This document shows, piece by piece, positions 11,915 through 32,991 of a stretch of DNA of 32,991 bases. A program made the translations under genes and the position numbers. The notes under the pieces are model-generated. The model was not told the DNA's origin, searched no databases, and saw only the letters and a program-made list of their open reading frames with translations. This DNA is from Candidatus Poribacteria bacterium. GTDB lineage: Bacteria; Poribacteria; WGA-4E; WGA-3G. The stretch's first letter is position 1, and each line of letters opens with the position of its first letter. Location of the stretch: positions 1 through 32,991 of the forward strand of contig VXMD01000085.1 of NCBI GenBank assembly GCA_009841255.1. The letters run 5' to 3'.

Positions 11915-14900
11915 CTAAACCTGTTCAACGCTCAAGGTTGCGGGTTCGCCGTTCAGTTTTTGGGCGAGGGTGAAGGCACTTTCGCCCGGTGTGTCTACGA
12001 CTGCAGTCGTGAGGGTCTCGCGGAGGATATAGTCTTGATGTGCCTGAAACGCCTCATTCGCAAGCGGAGACGTATCACTGAGACTGAGTTTAATCCGATC
12101 GGAGACGTTAAAATCGGCTTCCTTGCGCATATTCTGAATCTTATTGACGAACTCACGCGCCAAGCCTTCCAGCGTCAACTCGTGCGTCAACTCCGTTGAC
12201 AATGCGACGAATTTCTTCGCGTCCGCTTCCACAAAGAACCCCTCCCGATTTTGGGTCTGCACATCAACTTCGGACCGCTCAAGGGTGTATGTTTCCCCCG
12301 ACGCTTCAACCTGTAAGCTGCCCGTGGCCTCTAATTCTGCTTTCAACGCAACTGCGTCTGCGGCGGCGAATGCTTTGGCGATAGCTTGCACACCCTTACC
12401 GTATTTGGGTCCCAATACCTTGAAATTGGGTTTGAGGGTTACCTGTGCGAAAGCGTCCAAATCCTCTGTGAAGTCGATCGCTTTGACATTGAGTTCATCG
12501 TGGATGAGGTCTGCCAAACGATTCACGGTCGCTTTCTCTGCGTCAGAGAGACCACCGAGGGTAATTTCCGCCAAGGGTTGGCGCGTCTTAATGCCGGAAC
12601 GGTTGCGAGCGGCATGTCCCATGCTAATTACCTCGCGCGTGAAATCCATATCTGCCTCTAACTGGGCGTCTTTGAGAGCAGGATCCGCAACGGGATATTT
12701 CGCAAGGTGAACACTCAGAGGTGCCTCGGTATCCAGCGAACACACCAAGTTGCGATAGAGTTCATCCGCCAAAAACGGGACGAAGGGGGCAGCGAGTTTC
12801 GCAACGGTTACGAGGACCTCATAAAGCGTGGCGTAGGCGGCATGCTTGTCGGGTCCGGTTTCCGCGCCCCAGAAGCGATCACGGGAACGGCGGACATACC
12901 AGTTGCTGAGATCGTCGAGAAACGTCTCAATGGCACGCGGGGCGTTCGTGAGATGATAATTTTCCATCTCGTCGCGCACCCTGTCGATGAGGGTGTTGAG
13001 ACGAGATAAAATCCATTTGTCTATCGTGGCGCGTTCGGAAACCGGCGGCGCGTCTCGCAGGACATCGACCTGCTCAAGGTTGGCGTACATGACGAAGAAA
13101 CTATAGACGTTTTGGAGCGTTCCCATGAACTTCTTCATTGCTTCATCAATGCCGTCTGGTTTGAAAGCGCGGGGTGTCCACGGTGTGGTTGCGGTGAACA
13201 TATACCAGCGCATAGCGTCTGCGCCTTGTTTGTTCAGAATTGTCCACGGATCTATCGTGTTGCCTCGACTCTTACTCATCTTTTGGCCGTCGGGACCCAT
13301 AATGAGTTCAAGACAGAGGCAGTTCTTGTAGGCGGGTTTATCGTAGAGGAGTGTCCCCGTCGCTAAAAGACTGTAGAACCACCCACGGGTTTGATCGATG
13401 GCTTCGGAGATGAAATCGGCAGGGTACGCCTGCTCCAGCATCTCTTTGTTCTCAAAGGGGTAGTGCCACTGCGCCGTGTGCGCACAACCCGAGTCGAACC
13501 AGCAATCAATGACATCTTGGACGCGATACATCGTGCCATCGCATTTTTCACAGGCGAGAACAACTTCGTCTACATAAGGACGATGGAGCTCAATATCATC
13601 CGGCACATCCGTCCCGAGTTCCTGCAATTCGGCGATACTGCCGACACAGTGCTGATGTCCGCAATCGGCACATACCCAGACGGGCAAGGGGGTACCCCAA
13701 TAGCGTTCACGACTCAACCCCCAGTCGATATTGTTTTCCAACCAGTTGCCGAAACGTCCGTCTTTGATATGTTCCGGGTACCAGTTGATTTGCTGATTGT
13801 GCTGATGCATCTGATCCCGGATGGCGGTCGTCTTGATGAACCACGATTCGCGGGCATAGTAGAGCAAGGGGTTATCACACCGCCAACAGAACGGATATTG
13901 GTGGGTATACTCGGCAGCCTTGAATAACAGTCCACGTCCGTCCAAGTTTTCGATGATTTTTGGATCAGCGTCCTTGACGTATTCACCCGCCCACACCTCT
14001 TTAACCTCTGGGACAAATCTACCGTCGGGACCGACCAATTGCACGAGCGGCAGACCGTGTTTCTGTCCGATCTCGTAGTCATCCTGTCCAAAAGCGGGGG
14101 CAATGTGAACCAAGCCACTCCCCTCTGTCGTCGTTACGAAATCACCCGTGACGACGTAGTGGGATTTTTCCGGATGCTGTCCGCTCTCAAATAAGGGTTC
14201 GTATTCCCAATCTTGGAGGTCGCTGCCCTTATAATTTTCGACGATTTGTGGCGGTTCATCTCCGAACAAACTGGGGATACACTCCTTTGCAAGAATGAGA
14301 TGCCGTCCGTCGCTTTCTTCAACGGCGACGTAATCGTAATCTTCACCGACAGCGACAGCGACGTTAGAGGGTAACGTCCACGGGGTCGTCGTCCAGACGA
14401 GGAGGTAGGTATTCTCCCGGTTTTTCAGCGGAAAGCGAACGAAGATAGATGGATCGGCGACCTCTTGGTAACCGAGTGCGACCTCGTGGCTCGCTAAGGT
14501 TGTGCCGCACCGATAGCAATACGGTTGTACCTTATGTCCCTGATAGAGCAGTTCCTTGTCCCACGCTTGTCGGAGGACCCACCAGACGCTTTCAATGTAA
14601 TCGTTTGACAATGTAATATAGGCATCATCAAGATTGACCCAGAACCCGATGCGTTCCGTCATCTGTCGCCAATCCTGCTCGTATTGGAAGACGTTCTCCT
14701 TACATTTTTCGATGAAGTTCTGAACGCCGTAAGCCTCCAGTTCGGCTTTGTTTGTAATATTGAGTTGCTTCTCAACCTGATATTCAACGGGAAGTCCGTG
14801 TGTGTCCCAGCCTGCCTTACGATGGACGTAATGCCCTGTCATCGTCTTGTACCGGCAGACTGCATCTTTCATGATACGTGCGAGGACGTGATGTACCCCC

Positions 14901-15061
14901 GGCGGTGCATTCGCAAAGGGCGGCCCTTCCAGAAAAACAAAGGGCGGATCGCCTTTGTGGACATCCATACTCTTCTGAAAGATGTCGTTTTTACGCCAGA
15001 ATTCTAAGATCTGTTTTTCCTTTTCAGCGAACGTGAATTGGGAGGATACCTCTTCAAACAT
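11915..15061 (-). CDS. ileS: isoleucyl-tRNA synthetase (IleRS2-like) with GVHH in place of the HIGH motif
   Basis: A 1048-residue class I synthetase that charges tRNA(Ile). Visible parts are the HIGH region (PPFANAPPGVHHVL, where Gly55-Val56-His57-His58 replaces His-x-Gly-His), the CP1 editing domain (VWTTTPWTLPSN and GLVHIAPAFGQDDYE), the KMSKS loop (Lys594-Ser598) and a long C-terminal anticodon-binding region. Length and C-terminus fit the eukaryote-like IleRS2 type, which is mupirocin-resistant, better than the shorter Zn-tailed IleRS1. The HxGH to GxHH swap is the change described for hyper-resistant IleRS2 enzymes. AGGAGG is 14 nt before ATG 15061. The gene has its own promoter and a 400-nt attenuator-like leader. 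Confidence 0.97.
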   Translation of the reverse strand: MFEEVSSQFTFAEKEKQILEFWRKNDIFQKSMDVHKGDPPFVFLEGPPFANAPPGVHHVLARIMKDAVCRYKTMTGHYVHRKAGWDTHGLPVEYQVEKQLNITNKAELEAYGVQNFIEKCKENVFQYEQDWRQMTERIGFWVNLDDAYITLSNDYIESVWWVLRQAWDKELLYQGHKVQPYCYRCGTTLASHEVALGYQEVADPSIFVRFPLKNRENTYLLVWTTTPWTLPSNVAVAVGEDYDYVAVEESDGRHLILAKECIPSLFGDEPPQIVENYKGSDLQDWEYEPLFESGQHPEKSHYVVTGDFVTTTEGSGLVHIAPAFGQDDYEIGQKHGLPLVQLVGPDGRFVPEVKEVWAGEYVKDADPKIIENLDGRGLLFKAAEYTHQYPFCWRCDNPLLYYARESWFIKTTAIRDQMHQHNQQINWYPEHIKDGRFGNWLENNIDWGLSRERYWGTPLPVWVCADCGHQHCVGSIAELQELGTDVPDDIELHRPYVDEVVLACEKCDGTMYRVQDVIDCWFDSGCAHTAQWHYPFENKEMLEQAYPADFISEAIDQTRGWFYSLLATGTLLYDKPAYKNCLCLELIMGPDGQKMSKSRGNTIDPWTILNKQGADAMRWYMFTATTPWTPRAFKPDGIDEAMKKFMGTLQNVYSFFVMYANLEQVDVLRDAPPVSERATIDKWILSRLNTLIDRVRDEMENYHLTNAPRAIETFLDDLSNWYVRRSRDRFWGAETGPDKHAAYATLYEVLVTVAKLAAPFVPFLADELYRNLVCSLDTEAPLSVHLAKYPVADPALKDAQLEADMDFTREVISMGHAARNRSGIKTRQPLAEITLGGLSDAEKATVNRLADLIHDELNVKAIDFTEDLDAFAQVTLKPNFKVLGPKYGKGVQAIAKAFAAADAVALKAELEATGSLQVEASGETYTLERSEVDVQTQNREGFFVEADAKKFVALSTELTHELTLEGLAREFVNKIQNMRKEADFNVSDRIKLSLSDTSPLANEAFQAHQDYILRETLTTAVVDTPGESAFTLAQKLNGEPATLSVEQV

Positions 15062-15173
15062 TTTTTAACTATTAGCCTCCTGGACCTATTTCGTTAGAAT
15101 GATTTAGAAGTTGAGAATCGGAGTTCCGTCCTACAGAAGAGCTAAATGCTCCGATCTGCTACCTATATTAAAT

Positions 15174-15216
15174 AAAAAAACACCCTCACTGAAATCGTCT
15201 GCTTCAGTGATGGGCG
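15174..15216 (-). terminator. intrinsic terminator (attenuator) in the ileS leader
   Basis: On the minus strand CACTGAA (15209-15203) pairs with TTCAGTG (15193-15187). The stem extends through T-A, a bulged A and CCCGC/GGGTG, giving about 13 bp with a 7-8 nt loop. It is followed directly by seven U residues (15180-15174). It lies 110 nt before the ileS start and downstream of an Ile-rich reading frame, so it is placed to cut off ileS transcription. Confidence 0.8.
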
Positions 15217-15258
15217 TTGTAATGGAAACTTCTTCTCTGTGCGTGATTAGCCCACCAC
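15207..15258 (-). promoter_or_regulatory. predicted antiterminator helix of the ileS leader
   Basis: Minus-strand GTGGTGGGC (15258-15250) can pair over 9 bp, one of them a G-U, with GCCCATCAC (15215-15207). The second arm is the 5' side of the terminator stem, so the two structures exclude each other. The first arm is the last three codons (Val-Val-Gly) of the Ile-rich leader frame. A ribosome reaching the stop would cover it, and one stalled at the Ile codons would leave it free. Confidence 0.65.
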
Positions 15259-15396
15259 AGCACGACGAATAGCAATAATAATAATGGATATGGCGCGCGA
15301 ACCCGTGACAGCCTGAAGGTTGTCTTGATGTAGGGTGTTATAGCGCAAAAGTTCCTTATATTGCAATGTCGGTGTTGTAGGCATTTTTCTGTCCAT
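15247..15396 (-). CDS. ileS leader peptide with isoleucine codon run
   Basis: A short frame of 49 codons from ATG 15396 (or 45 from ATG 15384). It ends S-R-A-I-S-I-I-I-I-A-I-R-R-A-V-V-G-stop, so six of eight consecutive codons (15268-15291) are Ile: ATA TCC ATT ATT ATT ATT GCT ATT. An earlier in-frame ATG at 15471 lies at the promoter's predicted start and is unlikely to be used. The ribosome site is weak. Because ATT repeats read as Leu or Tyr codons in other frames, the frame is chosen by its fit to ileS and by the stop position at the antiterminator. It would act as an Ile-tRNA sensor. Confidence 0.6.
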   Translation of the reverse strand: MDRKMPTTPTLQYKELLRYNTLHQDNLQAVTGSRAISIIIIAIRRAVVG

Positions 15397-15476
15397 GTTT
15401 CGTTCAACAGATGTACGATGTCGTTGTAGACGCGGAGTCTTTTTTGAGACTCGGCTAAAACGTATCTTCATTAATT

Positions 15477-15505
15477 ATAATACTATATTCCATGGAGGAT
15501 GTCAA
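15477..15505 (-). promoter_or_regulatory. sigma-70 promoter of the ileS leader
   Basis: Minus-strand perfect TTGACA (15500-15505), a 17-bp spacer and TATTAT (15477-15482). An overlapping TATAAT lies at 15474-15479. The expected start near 15470 gives a leader of about 410 nt. The first leader element is a hairpin GAGTCT/AGACTC at about 15436-15453. Confidence 0.75.
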
Positions 15506-15571
15506 ATATTTCTTCACACAGCGTGAGATTTGGAGCACAACCAATGTAATAGAGTTTTTTACTGAAGGTTC

Positions 15572-15600
15572 TTGAATCCCAGCGAAACAGAAGGTATATA
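15572..15600 (+). promoter_or_regulatory. candidate promoter for the protease/TPR/FGE-like lipoprotein
   Basis: TTGAAT (15572-15577), 17 bp, TATATA (15595-15600), about 105 nt before the start codon at 15713. It diverges from the ileS promoter. Quality is moderate and no other site is better. Confidence 0.4.
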
Positions 15601-15712
15601 ACTTACGGTGAGATACCGATACATTATGGATCAGCGGGGTTAAGAAGCCTCGCCTATCGAGAGGTATTGTGACAAATCTTTCGGTAGCCATTGAACCCAA
15701 GGATATAGACCT

Positions 15713-18124
15713 ATGCAACACGGTAGAAAAGGTTTACTCAGTCTATTCACTTTAGTGCTCCTCCTCTCATGCACGAGAACGGAGCAGCAGATCACTCCCG
15801 ATAAACAGCAACTTCCAATACTGACAGTAGACACGGTAACCCAGAAAGGAAAAGCGTCTGTCGTCCGCATTACAGGTGGGAGTTTGTTTACAGACAGAAA
15901 TTGGTTGAACATAGGAGCAGGAAGCGGTTTTTTTGTGGAGCCTGATAAGATTGTAACGAACATGCACGTTGTTGCACGTCCGGGTGTTATTTTCGCAAAA
16001 CTCAGCGACGATGAAACCATCTGGACTGTTGAAGGGGTCACCGCATTTGACATAGAAAACGACCTCGTCATTTTAAAAATCGCAGGTGAAGGTGTGCCGC
16101 TCTCCCTCGGTAATAGTGGTGCCGTTACGAAAGGTGAGACTGTTTACGCTATAGGCTATCCCGGCGGTGGAGATTACAAACTCACGGAAGGCATTGTATG
16201 GAACAGCCGATATAAAGACATGTGGATACAAACAACAGCAGAAACTGTCAAAGGGAATAGCGGCGGTCCTATCCTAAACGATAGAGGCGAAGTCATCGGC
16301 ATCAGTTCCCGCGTTAGTGACTTCTACAGTTATGCTGTGCCTTCAGACGCGCTTAAAGCACTGTTTTCTCAATCTGCCCGAACTGAACCGTTAGTGACGT
16401 GGTATCAGCAAAAACGGATACGTGCCTACACCTATTACGCGCGGGGACAACATAAATATCAAGACAATGACGATAGAGCCGCAATACTTGAACTCAATAA
16501 ATCCGTTGAATTGGACCCGGAGTTTGCTTATGGCTACAGAGTGCGCGGGTACGTAATGTCCCATTACGGTGATGCTATCGGCAAGTACGAGAAGAACATC
16601 ACTAAAGCTCGGAGACAGCATCAAGCGGCGATAAAGAACCATACCAAAGCCATCGAATTAGATTCTAAAAATGATGAAAGCTACCACGGACGCGGGCATG
16701 CGCGGTCTCGCTACGGTAAATATGAAGCCGAGCAAGCCAATACAACAGAAGCCCGAAAACAGTATCAAGCGGCGATAAAGGACTATACCAAAGCCATTCA
16801 GTTAGATTCAGACGATAGCACACATTACAACGGGCGCGGACAGGTGAAGCGCCGCTTTGGACAATCGAACATGAAACAAGGGGCATTTCGTAAAGCCCGA
16901 AAACAGTATCAAGCGGCGATAAAGGACTATACTAAAGCCATTCAGTTAAACCCGAACGATAGTTCACATTACAACGGGCGCGGATGGACGCAATACCTGC
17001 TTGGGCAACTAAAAACGGAACAAGGAAAAACCTCTGAAGCACAGAAGCACTATTACGCAGCGATATCGGACAGTGATAAAGCCGTTCAGCTCCAAATAGA
17101 TAACGCCTCTGCCTATCACACTCGCGGTGTTGCAAAGGCGGCACTTGATGCGTACAACAACGCAATAGAAGATTTTAATACCGCCATAGAACACAACTCT
17201 GATTTCACCGAAACTTACAACAGCCGTGGAAAGGCAAAAGAGGCACTCGGACAACATGAAGCAGCAGCAATAGACTTCACGCGGGCACTGCAGTCTTTAG
17301 GGCACGGCACTATATCAGCACAGGAATTGGAAAAGGCTGCTACTGAAATGGTAAAGATTCCTGCAGGCGAGTTTCAGATGGGTAGTAAAGAACTCAGATA
17401 TGCGACGCCTACACACACCGTTTATCTTGACGAATTCTATATTGATCCTTATGAGGTGACGAACGCGCAATTTAAAGCGTTCATTGCTGCGAATCCAGAG
17501 TGGAGCAAGGAAAACATCCCGGGCAAATACCATAACGGCAACTATCTGCAACTCTGGAATGGAAACGACTATCCCAACGGAAAATCCAATCATCCTGTTG
17601 TCTATGTGAGTTGGTACGCAGCAATGGCTTATGCCAAGTGGAAAGGTAAACGGCTTCCGACGGAGGCAGAATGGGAGAAAGCGGCACGCGGCGGCGTGGC
17701 AGATAAACGCTATGTATGGGGCGATTCGCGAGATCCAGGTAAGGCAAACTATGGGTATTACGGACGACAGACTTCACCTGTCGGCAGTTATTTACCGAAT
17801 GGGTACGGCTTACATGACATGGGTGGGAACGTATGGGAACACTGCTTGGACGAGTTTGACAAGGACTTTTATAGAAATTCTCCGAAGAAAAATCCGATCG
17901 CTGGTGTTCCCGATATTGAGGCGTTGACGGAAAACTTTACGAGTGTTCAGACGGAGCACGTGTCGCGTGGCGGTTCTTGGAATACACCTGGCCCCGCCCA
18001 TGTGGCAAGTCGCGGCAGCGATACACCTATAAATACGAACAGCTGGCTCGGATTTCGTTGTGCTAGGAGTACTCCGCCCCAACAGGATGCCCAAACCATT
18101 ACTATGCCGAGTATCCCCGATTAG
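15713..18124 (+). CDS. lipoprotein fusing a trypsin-like protease, TPR repeats and a sulfatase-modifying-factor-like domain
   Basis: An 803-residue protein. Residues 1-20 are a lipoprotein signal ending LLLSC (Cys20). Residues 45-220 form a DegP/HtrA-like serine protease with His85 (TNMHVV), Asp117 (ENDLVIL) and Ser183 (KGNSGGP). Residues 230-535 hold TPR units, several with an unusual 48-residue period and nearly identical DNA. Residues 546-790 form an FGE/SUMF1 domain starting MVKIPAGEFQMGS. That domain reads RGGSWNTPGP and lacks the cysteine pair of true formylglycine-generating enzymes, so it is probably a binding domain. Likely located at the cell envelope. AAGGA precedes ATG 15713 by 9 nt. 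Confidence 0.92.
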   Translation: MQHGRKGLLSLFTLVLLLSCTRTEQQITPDKQQLPILTVDTVTQKGKASVVRITGGSLFTDRNWLNIGAGSGFFVEPDKIVTNMHVVARPGVIFAKLSDDETIWTVEGVTAFDIENDLVILKIAGEGVPLSLGNSGAVTKGETVYAIGYPGGGDYKLTEGIVWNSRYKDMWIQTTAETVKGNSGGPILNDRGEVIGISSRVSDFYSYAVPSDALKALFSQSARTEPLVTWYQQKRIRAYTYYARGQHKYQDNDDRAAILELNKSVELDPEFAYGYRVRGYVMSHYGDAIGKYEKNITKARRQHQAAIKNHTKAIELDSKNDESYHGRGHARSRYGKYEAEQANTTEARKQYQAAIKDYTKAIQLDSDDSTHYNGRGQVKRRFGQSNMKQGAFRKARKQYQAAIKDYTKAIQLNPNDSSHYNGRGWTQYLLGQLKTEQGKTSEAQKHYYAAISDSDKAVQLQIDNASAYHTRGVAKAALDAYNNAIEDFNTAIEHNSDFTETYNSRGKAKEALGQHEAAAIDFTRALQSLGHGTISAQELEKAATEMVKIPAGEFQMGSKELRYATPTHTVYLDEFYIDPYEVTNAQFKAFIAANPEWSKENIPGKYHNGNYLQLWNGNDYPNGKSNHPVVYVSWYAAMAYAKWKGKRLPTEAEWEKAARGGVADKRYVWGDSRDPGKANYGYYGRQTSPVGSYLPNGYGLHDMGGNVWEHCLDEFDKDFYRNSPKKNPIAGVPDIEALTENFTSVQTEHVSRGGSWNTPGPAHVASRGSDTPINTNSWLGFRCARSTPPQQDAQTITMPSIPD

Positions 18125-31536: not shown

Positions 31537-31653
31537 TTCCCGGCAGCGACCTACTTTCCCGCGGGGTTGCCCCCGAAGTATCATCAGCGCTGAAGGGCTT
31601 AACTACCGTGTTCGGGATGGGTACGGGTGGGTCCCCTTCGCTATAACCACCGG
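31537..31653 (-). rRNA. rrf: 5S ribosomal RNA
   Basis: The minus strand carries the conserved 5S core CCATCCCGAACACGG and GTTAAGCCCTTCAGCGC, a typical terminal stem (CCGGTGG.../...GCCGGG) and about 117 nt of length. It follows 23S by about 60 nt with no tRNA between. Exact ends are estimated. Confidence 0.93.
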
Positions 31654-31714
31654 AAAGGTGTATAAGAATATTTGACAATTGTATATGTGTGAGGGGTCGG
31701 CAGAATGAAAGAAG

Positions 31715-32991
<1,277 letters not shown>

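Follow-up and report, generated by a model that had tools for sequence, protein, structure and literature searches.

Leader-peptide attenuation is known chiefly from Proteobacteria and Actinobacteria. The trp, his, ilv, leu and thr attenuators of Enterobacteria combine cognate codons in a leader, a stop codon near the antiterminator arm, and antiterminator and terminator structures that exclude each other. The pheST attenuator of Escherichia coli applies the same principle to a synthetase gene, again through cognate codons. Outside the proteobacteria, leader-peptide control of synthetases has been predicted computationally for leuS and trpS in Streptomyces (PMC1262725) and for hisS in bacilli (PMC2965389). 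A leader open reading frame in front of ileS also has a precedent, since the Caulobacter ileS leader CDS CCNA_03934 appears in a ribosome-profiling study of coding sequences (PMC4117421). In the available portion of that paper, this leader serves only as a negative control in a motility assay and Ile-codon attenuation is not described, and it is compared with Poribacteria here by description only. T-box riboswitches likewise sense tRNA charging, control ileS in many Gram-positive bacteria, and can change specificity by a codon swap.

The window analysed here, a stretch of 32,991 nucleotides from a Candidatus Poribacteria bacterium, carries ileS on its minus strand, preceded by what is very probably a ribosome-mediated transcription attenuator that senses the charging of tRNA-Ile (Table 1). 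This reading draws on what sequence and comparison reveal: the parts and their spacing, their conservation, compensatory changes, and a match between codons and genes across a wider family. An earlier sequence-only reading had proposed a promoter, a short Ile-rich frame with its stop codon, a U-tailed terminator hairpin about 110 nt upstream of ileS, and a 9-bp pairing between the last three leader codons and the 5' arm of that terminator, and each of these lies where it had been placed. The terminator lies downstream of the ileS promoter and ends 112 nt short of the start codon of ileS (ATG at 15061). The promoter carries 11 of 12 consensus bases and is the sole promoter-like site within 15000-15720; the pattern TTGACA-N15-19-TANNNT is present upstream of each same-genus leader examined. 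The leader ends in ISIIIIAIRRAVVG-stop (R-A-I-S-I-I-I-I-A-I-R-R-A-V-V-G-stop), with six Ile among the 16 residues up to the arm GTGGTGGGC, which the stop codon directly adjoins. When the window is folded, the pairing of this arm extends upstream via 15266-15259 to a total of about 16 bp. Shine-Dalgarno signals are weak in the leaders of this genus.

Table 1. Parts of the ileS leader in the window, and loci at which the same core precedes other genes.
Feature	Position or locus	Strand	Details
Promoter	15477..15505	-	-35 TTGACA 15505-15500, 17-nt spacer, -10 TATTAT 15482-15477
Leader ORF, 49 codons, MDRKMPTTPTLQYKELLRYNTLHQDNLQAVTGSRAISIIIIAIRRAVVG-stop	15247..15396	-	ATG at 15396, TAA 15249-15247
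Putative sensor codons	15268..15291	-	ATA 15291-15289, ATT x4 15285-15274, ATT 15270-15268
Antiterminator 5' arm GTGGTGGGC	15250..15258	-	Final three sense codons of the leader; 15258-15250 pairs with 15215-15207 over 9 bp, one G-U
Shared arm GCCCATCAC	15207..15215	-	Terminator 5' arm; partner is the antiterminator arm or the terminator 3' arm
Intrinsic terminator	15174..15217	-	Hairpin 15217-15180, about -20 kcal/mol; U-run reaching 15174
ileS, isoleucyl-tRNA synthetase, 1048 aa, putative regulated gene	11915..15061	-	NCBIfam TIGR00392
Citramalate synthase (cimA), Ile codons	L186, L229		..VIAIIIIIRIAAPCVVGGG (L186); ..ELISIISIRIARPGGVGSG (L229)
leuS, Leu codons	L179, L181, L219, L220, L222, L224		..ALALRLRLLGLLRLKS (L179); ..LLDLVLLRLRGLVGG (L220)
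tyrS, Tyr codons	L183, L226, L231, L176, L182		..TYLYYYTSVLFVPALYL (L183); ..QPYFYYTYQYVYSLLS (L226); ..NFYYYYCG (L231)
DAHP synthase, both types, Tyr codons	L177, L176, L221 and others		..PYFLYLYLFLLYLCCDGG (L177)
metG, Met codons	L185		..IIMIFMMVELNGG

The gene itself is readily identified, as its product scores 956.6 bits against its NCBIfam model (cut-off 621), and relatives at 84-94% identity all belong to Candidatus Poribacteria. Models of the mupirocin-resistant enzymes MupA/MupB score this product as highly as TIGR00392 does, yet below their own curated cut-offs, which suggests a type-2, eukaryote-like enzyme. The ileS products of families f2 and f4 are just ~46% identical to it. Between terminator and gene, at 15106-15145, lies a REP-like short sequence that occurs in at least 10 places in the same genome and is missing at this position in many relatives. 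The window ends cut through partial rRNA genes (1-1101 and 31538-32991), with 16S at one end and 5S and 23S at the other.

This arrangement allows predictions of how the leader would behave: that it is translated, that ribosomes stall on it, that transcription does terminate, and which way the response runs. RNA polymerase would transcribe the leader with a ribosome trailing on the 49-codon frame. When Ile-tRNA(Ile) is ample, the ribosome would pass the Ile codons, reach the stop and cover GTGGTGGGC, so that GCCCATCAC is free to form the terminator and transcription halts upstream of ileS. When charged tRNA-Ile is scarce, the ribosome would stall on the Ile run and leave GTGGTGGGC exposed. The exposed arm would then pair with GCCCATCAC before the 3' arm of the terminator exists, and the polymerase would continue into ileS.

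Computed folds agree with these two states. They were run from the edge of a stalled ribosome to just before the terminator 3' arm, for several ribosome positions. A ribosome on the Ile codons lets the antiterminator fold (-14 to -20 kcal/mol), whereas one at the stop makes it impossible and leaves the terminator alone (-21 kcal/mol). Once the full terminator has been transcribed, it is the more stable state, and the choice must therefore be kinetic, as in classical attenuation. The element had also been described as a complete attenuator, which overstates it: the leader, arms and terminator stand, but a conserved 1:2 protector hairpin is not supported. In single folds, 48 of 53 leaders of family f1 place the arm's partner before the Ile run, with the run in the loop; such upstream pairing is no more frequent than with shuffled sequence, the arms are GC-rich, and RNAalifold finds no consensus for the hairpin in the alignment.

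The antiterminator was selected by RNAalifold unprompted. Its paired cells amount to 97.8% in 15 ileS arm pairs, 95.5% in 22 ileS cores and 96.5% in 21 mixed cores; in all three alignments the covariation score is above every one of 500 shuffles, and pairing drops to ~29-63% in slid controls. Double changes occur in two to four pairs only, and seven of the 11 core pairs never vary on both sides, so the evidence from covariation is good rather than overwhelming. Between groups the arms change together, from GTGGTGGGC/GCCCATCAC in f1 to GATGGTGGGC/GCCCATCATC elsewhere and CAATGGTGGGT/GCCCATCATTG in f10. The 3' arm of the terminator follows these exchanges, which thus involve all three arms.

Conservation was examined in the DNA upstream of 73 ileS genes from the whole phylum, in a set of 85 Poribacteria genomes. 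The terminator is kept in 69 of the 73 regions, and in nearly all of these its 5' arm has a possible pairing partner upstream. Terminator and arm occur together in 35 of 36 regions of the window's own genus and in all 16 of genus g20, and further members are found in families f2, f3, f4, f5, f6, f7 and f10. In f5 the arms differ in sequence, yet the fold still joins them; a few loci (L043, L106, L111) show imperfect or shortened pairing. A covariance model of the core has a match in 73 of the 85 genomes. By eye, the element is present in none of six ileS upstream regions from the Kiritimatiellae group.

Four of the 73 genes lack an adjoining unit (L114, L054, L056, L037). At L114 (G063) and L054 (G044) the leader is gone and the promoter is retained close to ileS, making these natural attenuator deletions. 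An ileS-type leader with a broken terminator (L230, G038:C21:175096-175176) lies 7.7 kb from ileS beside an integrase-like gene, and is apparently the leader of L056, displaced by an insertion. L037 is on a short contig, with a copy of the attenuator on another (L188). One genome, G078, has two ileS copies (L108, L109), each with its own attenuator, and may be a mixed assembly.

The leader frame is kept as a frame rather than as a peptide. Alignment of the relatives, which the sequence-only reading had suggested as a check, shows Ile codons mostly kept in place while the peptide drifts and the competing stems change together. The frame is open in all 35 leaders of the own genus, and the other two frames contain stops in 19 and 34 of them. 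Upstream of the Ile run, pN/pS is 0.71 in the leader's frame and 0.72 and 0.67 in the others, giving no sign by this measure of purifying selection on the peptide. This equality is expected if only the frame and its control codons matter, and is also why frame openness and codon class, and not peptide conservation, are used as evidence. Within the own genus and g20, the run varies by whole codons from two to five consecutive Ile, with ATA or ATC sometimes replacing ATT. Alignment of the peptides fails for the most distant genomes, yet most of these still have Ile codons just upstream of the arm, as in the ends ..LISIIILIDGGQKA (f3), ..SIGIISIIIIIPSCDGGLMETK (f4), ..LLGIIIGLLRAGGGQ (f7) and ..NDDIIIIRLLQTMVG (f10). 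The G064 leader has two Ile codons only, and two f6 leaders (L046, L057) have one in the window before the arm and are rich in Phe, Leu and Tyr. Across the family the stop codon lies anywhere between 5 nt ahead of the arm start and 49 nt beyond it; where it is well past the arm, its distance from that start is mostly up to 33 nt, and once 49 nt. Masking at the stop therefore fits exactly in the window's own genus. In some relatives it may operate in another way, since a ribosome at a stop well past the arm would not simply cover that arm.

The element had been presented as an ileS switch, and this needs a correction: it belongs to a wider family in which the codons are swapped. The covariance model built on ileS leaders matched other genes, and a broader model, R2, was then run on 32 diverse genomes and the loci were read (Table 1). 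Gene names rest on NCBIfam for ten loci (L175, L176 twice, L177, L179, L181, L183, L185, L186 and L190), and on reading of the sequence by eye for the rest. For 34 leaders, chosen blindly as the longest ATG frame ending near the arm, 125 cognate codons were counted; with gene labels shuffled in 20,000 trials the count averaged 60 and peaked at 103, never reaching 125. The set includes related genera, so its leaders are only partly independent, and for L229 the blind rule took a frame judged wrong, which weighs against the result. In 32 of the 34 leaders, the last cognate codon begins 3-20 nt ahead of the arm. The match between codon and gene, far above that with shuffled labels, speaks more strongly than any other evidence for the codons as the sensor, and one RNA core with four codon classes amounts to a natural experiment that points to the codon as the specificity element.

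Further loci lie at the edges of this family. A leader ending ..FIRVRRSRSG (L232) is possibly an attenuator of an argD-like aminotransferase with Arg codons. Weak model matches at L178, L223, L227, L228 and L234 were unconvincing and left uncounted; L223 precedes a hisS-like gene and its leader has no His codons. By eye, no attenuator is evident upstream of leuS in the own genus and G082 (L258-L262) or upstream of tyrS in G082 (L263). An exact-pattern search of the window's own genome gave no second copy of the core beyond chance. Most genomes of the genus have a second core copy (G000:C81:76211-76315, L172; also L173, L174 and L238-L257), whose leader starts like that of ileS (MFYLSLTTLI..), lacks the Ile run, and precedes a DUF5916/CBM9-like protein, named from Pfam at two loci. 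This copy seems to be an ileS leader that was duplicated and passed to an unrelated gene.

These comparisons bear on other explanations of the ileS element. It appears very unlikely that the RNA is a switch bound by a protein or metabolite with an incidental Ile frame: the RNA core is the best-conserved part and the peptide outside the Ile region is free of purifying selection, as such a switch would have it, but the frame never closes in the own genus, its Ile run changes by whole codons, and those codons become Leu, Tyr or Met according to the downstream gene. Arrest of a hydrophobic nascent peptide in the exit tunnel, instead of starvation for a codon, is a highly improbable cause of stalling. 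The leaders are indeed hydrophobic, and those of f6 abound in Phe, Leu and Tyr rather than Ile, yet arrest peptides require a defined sequence, and between families the peptide is wholly different save for its codon class.

A T-box riboswitch that senses uncharged tRNA-Ile directly has an extremely small chance of being the answer, even though ileS is commonly under T-box control elsewhere (PMC2494555, PMC1262725) and Poribacteria possess T-boxes. At the ileS leader an Rfam scan finds no T-box or other family above threshold, and no T-box even at E up to 10, in agreement with the earlier failure to recognise a T-box core there; the conserved unit is instead a reading frame with two mutually exclusive arms. 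T-box family matches occur in 79 of the 85 genomes, in 61 of them above the curated cut-off; most of these genomes have one or two, among them L128 (C32:275072-275390) in the window's own genome and further loci L129-L141. Those inspected precede ilvB, ilvD or pheS, with five downstream genes confirmed by NCBIfam and the others named by eye. Read by position in the loop, the specifier would be GUC (Val) at ilvB and ilvD and UUC (Phe) at pheS. An ordinary terminator of a neighbouring gene is almost certainly not the explanation for the terminator that does exist there, since it follows the promoter of ileS and precedes the gene itself, its pairing arm is kept throughout the phylum, and the upstream neighbour of ileS is a divergent gene on the plus strand (15713 onward).

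Peptide-sensing attenuation of ileS is thus supported by the Ile codons of relatives, by covarying stems and by the lack of a T-box, and with a T-box at pheS and a predicted peptide attenuator at ileS the same bacteria would use both systems. It is fairly likely that Poribacteria have one modular attenuator chassis, made of antiterminator arm and terminator, which has spread by duplication to synthetase and biosynthesis genes and changed specificity simply by swaps of leader codons. T-boxes and peptide attenuators would then have partly traded their usual roles, with T-boxes at pheS, ilvB and ilvD and peptide attenuators at ileS, leuS, tyrS, metG, cimA and DAHP synthase. Attenuation is seemingly conserved on ileS through an uncultured phylum of sponge bacteria, alongside T-boxes for other genes of the same genomes, and the family offers a ready means of predicting amino-acid control in bacteria that cannot be cultured.

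The mechanism is of a known kind, as classical attenuation, known or predicted, already extends to the synthetase genes pheST, trpS, leuS and hisS (PMC1262725, PMC2965389). In the literature covered, which lay mostly outside subscription journals, neither attenuation in Poribacteria nor Ile-codon attenuation of ileS was found. The apparent novelty lies in the phylum, in ileS as a worked example, and in a single RNA core that recurs with four codon classes. Unlike the element at Poribacteria ileS, where none is present, a T-box binds tRNA directly and without translation. Relative to pheST of E. coli, Ile replaces Phe, and the pheS inspected in Poribacteria has a T-box. The Streptomyces leuS and trpS and bacilli hisS predictions concern other phyla and genes, and the available portions of those papers describe no sequence core shared across amino acids. 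The trp and his attenuators have a 1:2 pause or protector hairpin, whereas the Poribacteria leaders have no RNAalifold consensus for one. Compared with the trp, his, ilv, leu and thr attenuators as a group, the target in Poribacteria is a tRNA synthetase, the phylum is new, and a single homologous RNA core recurs with different codons.
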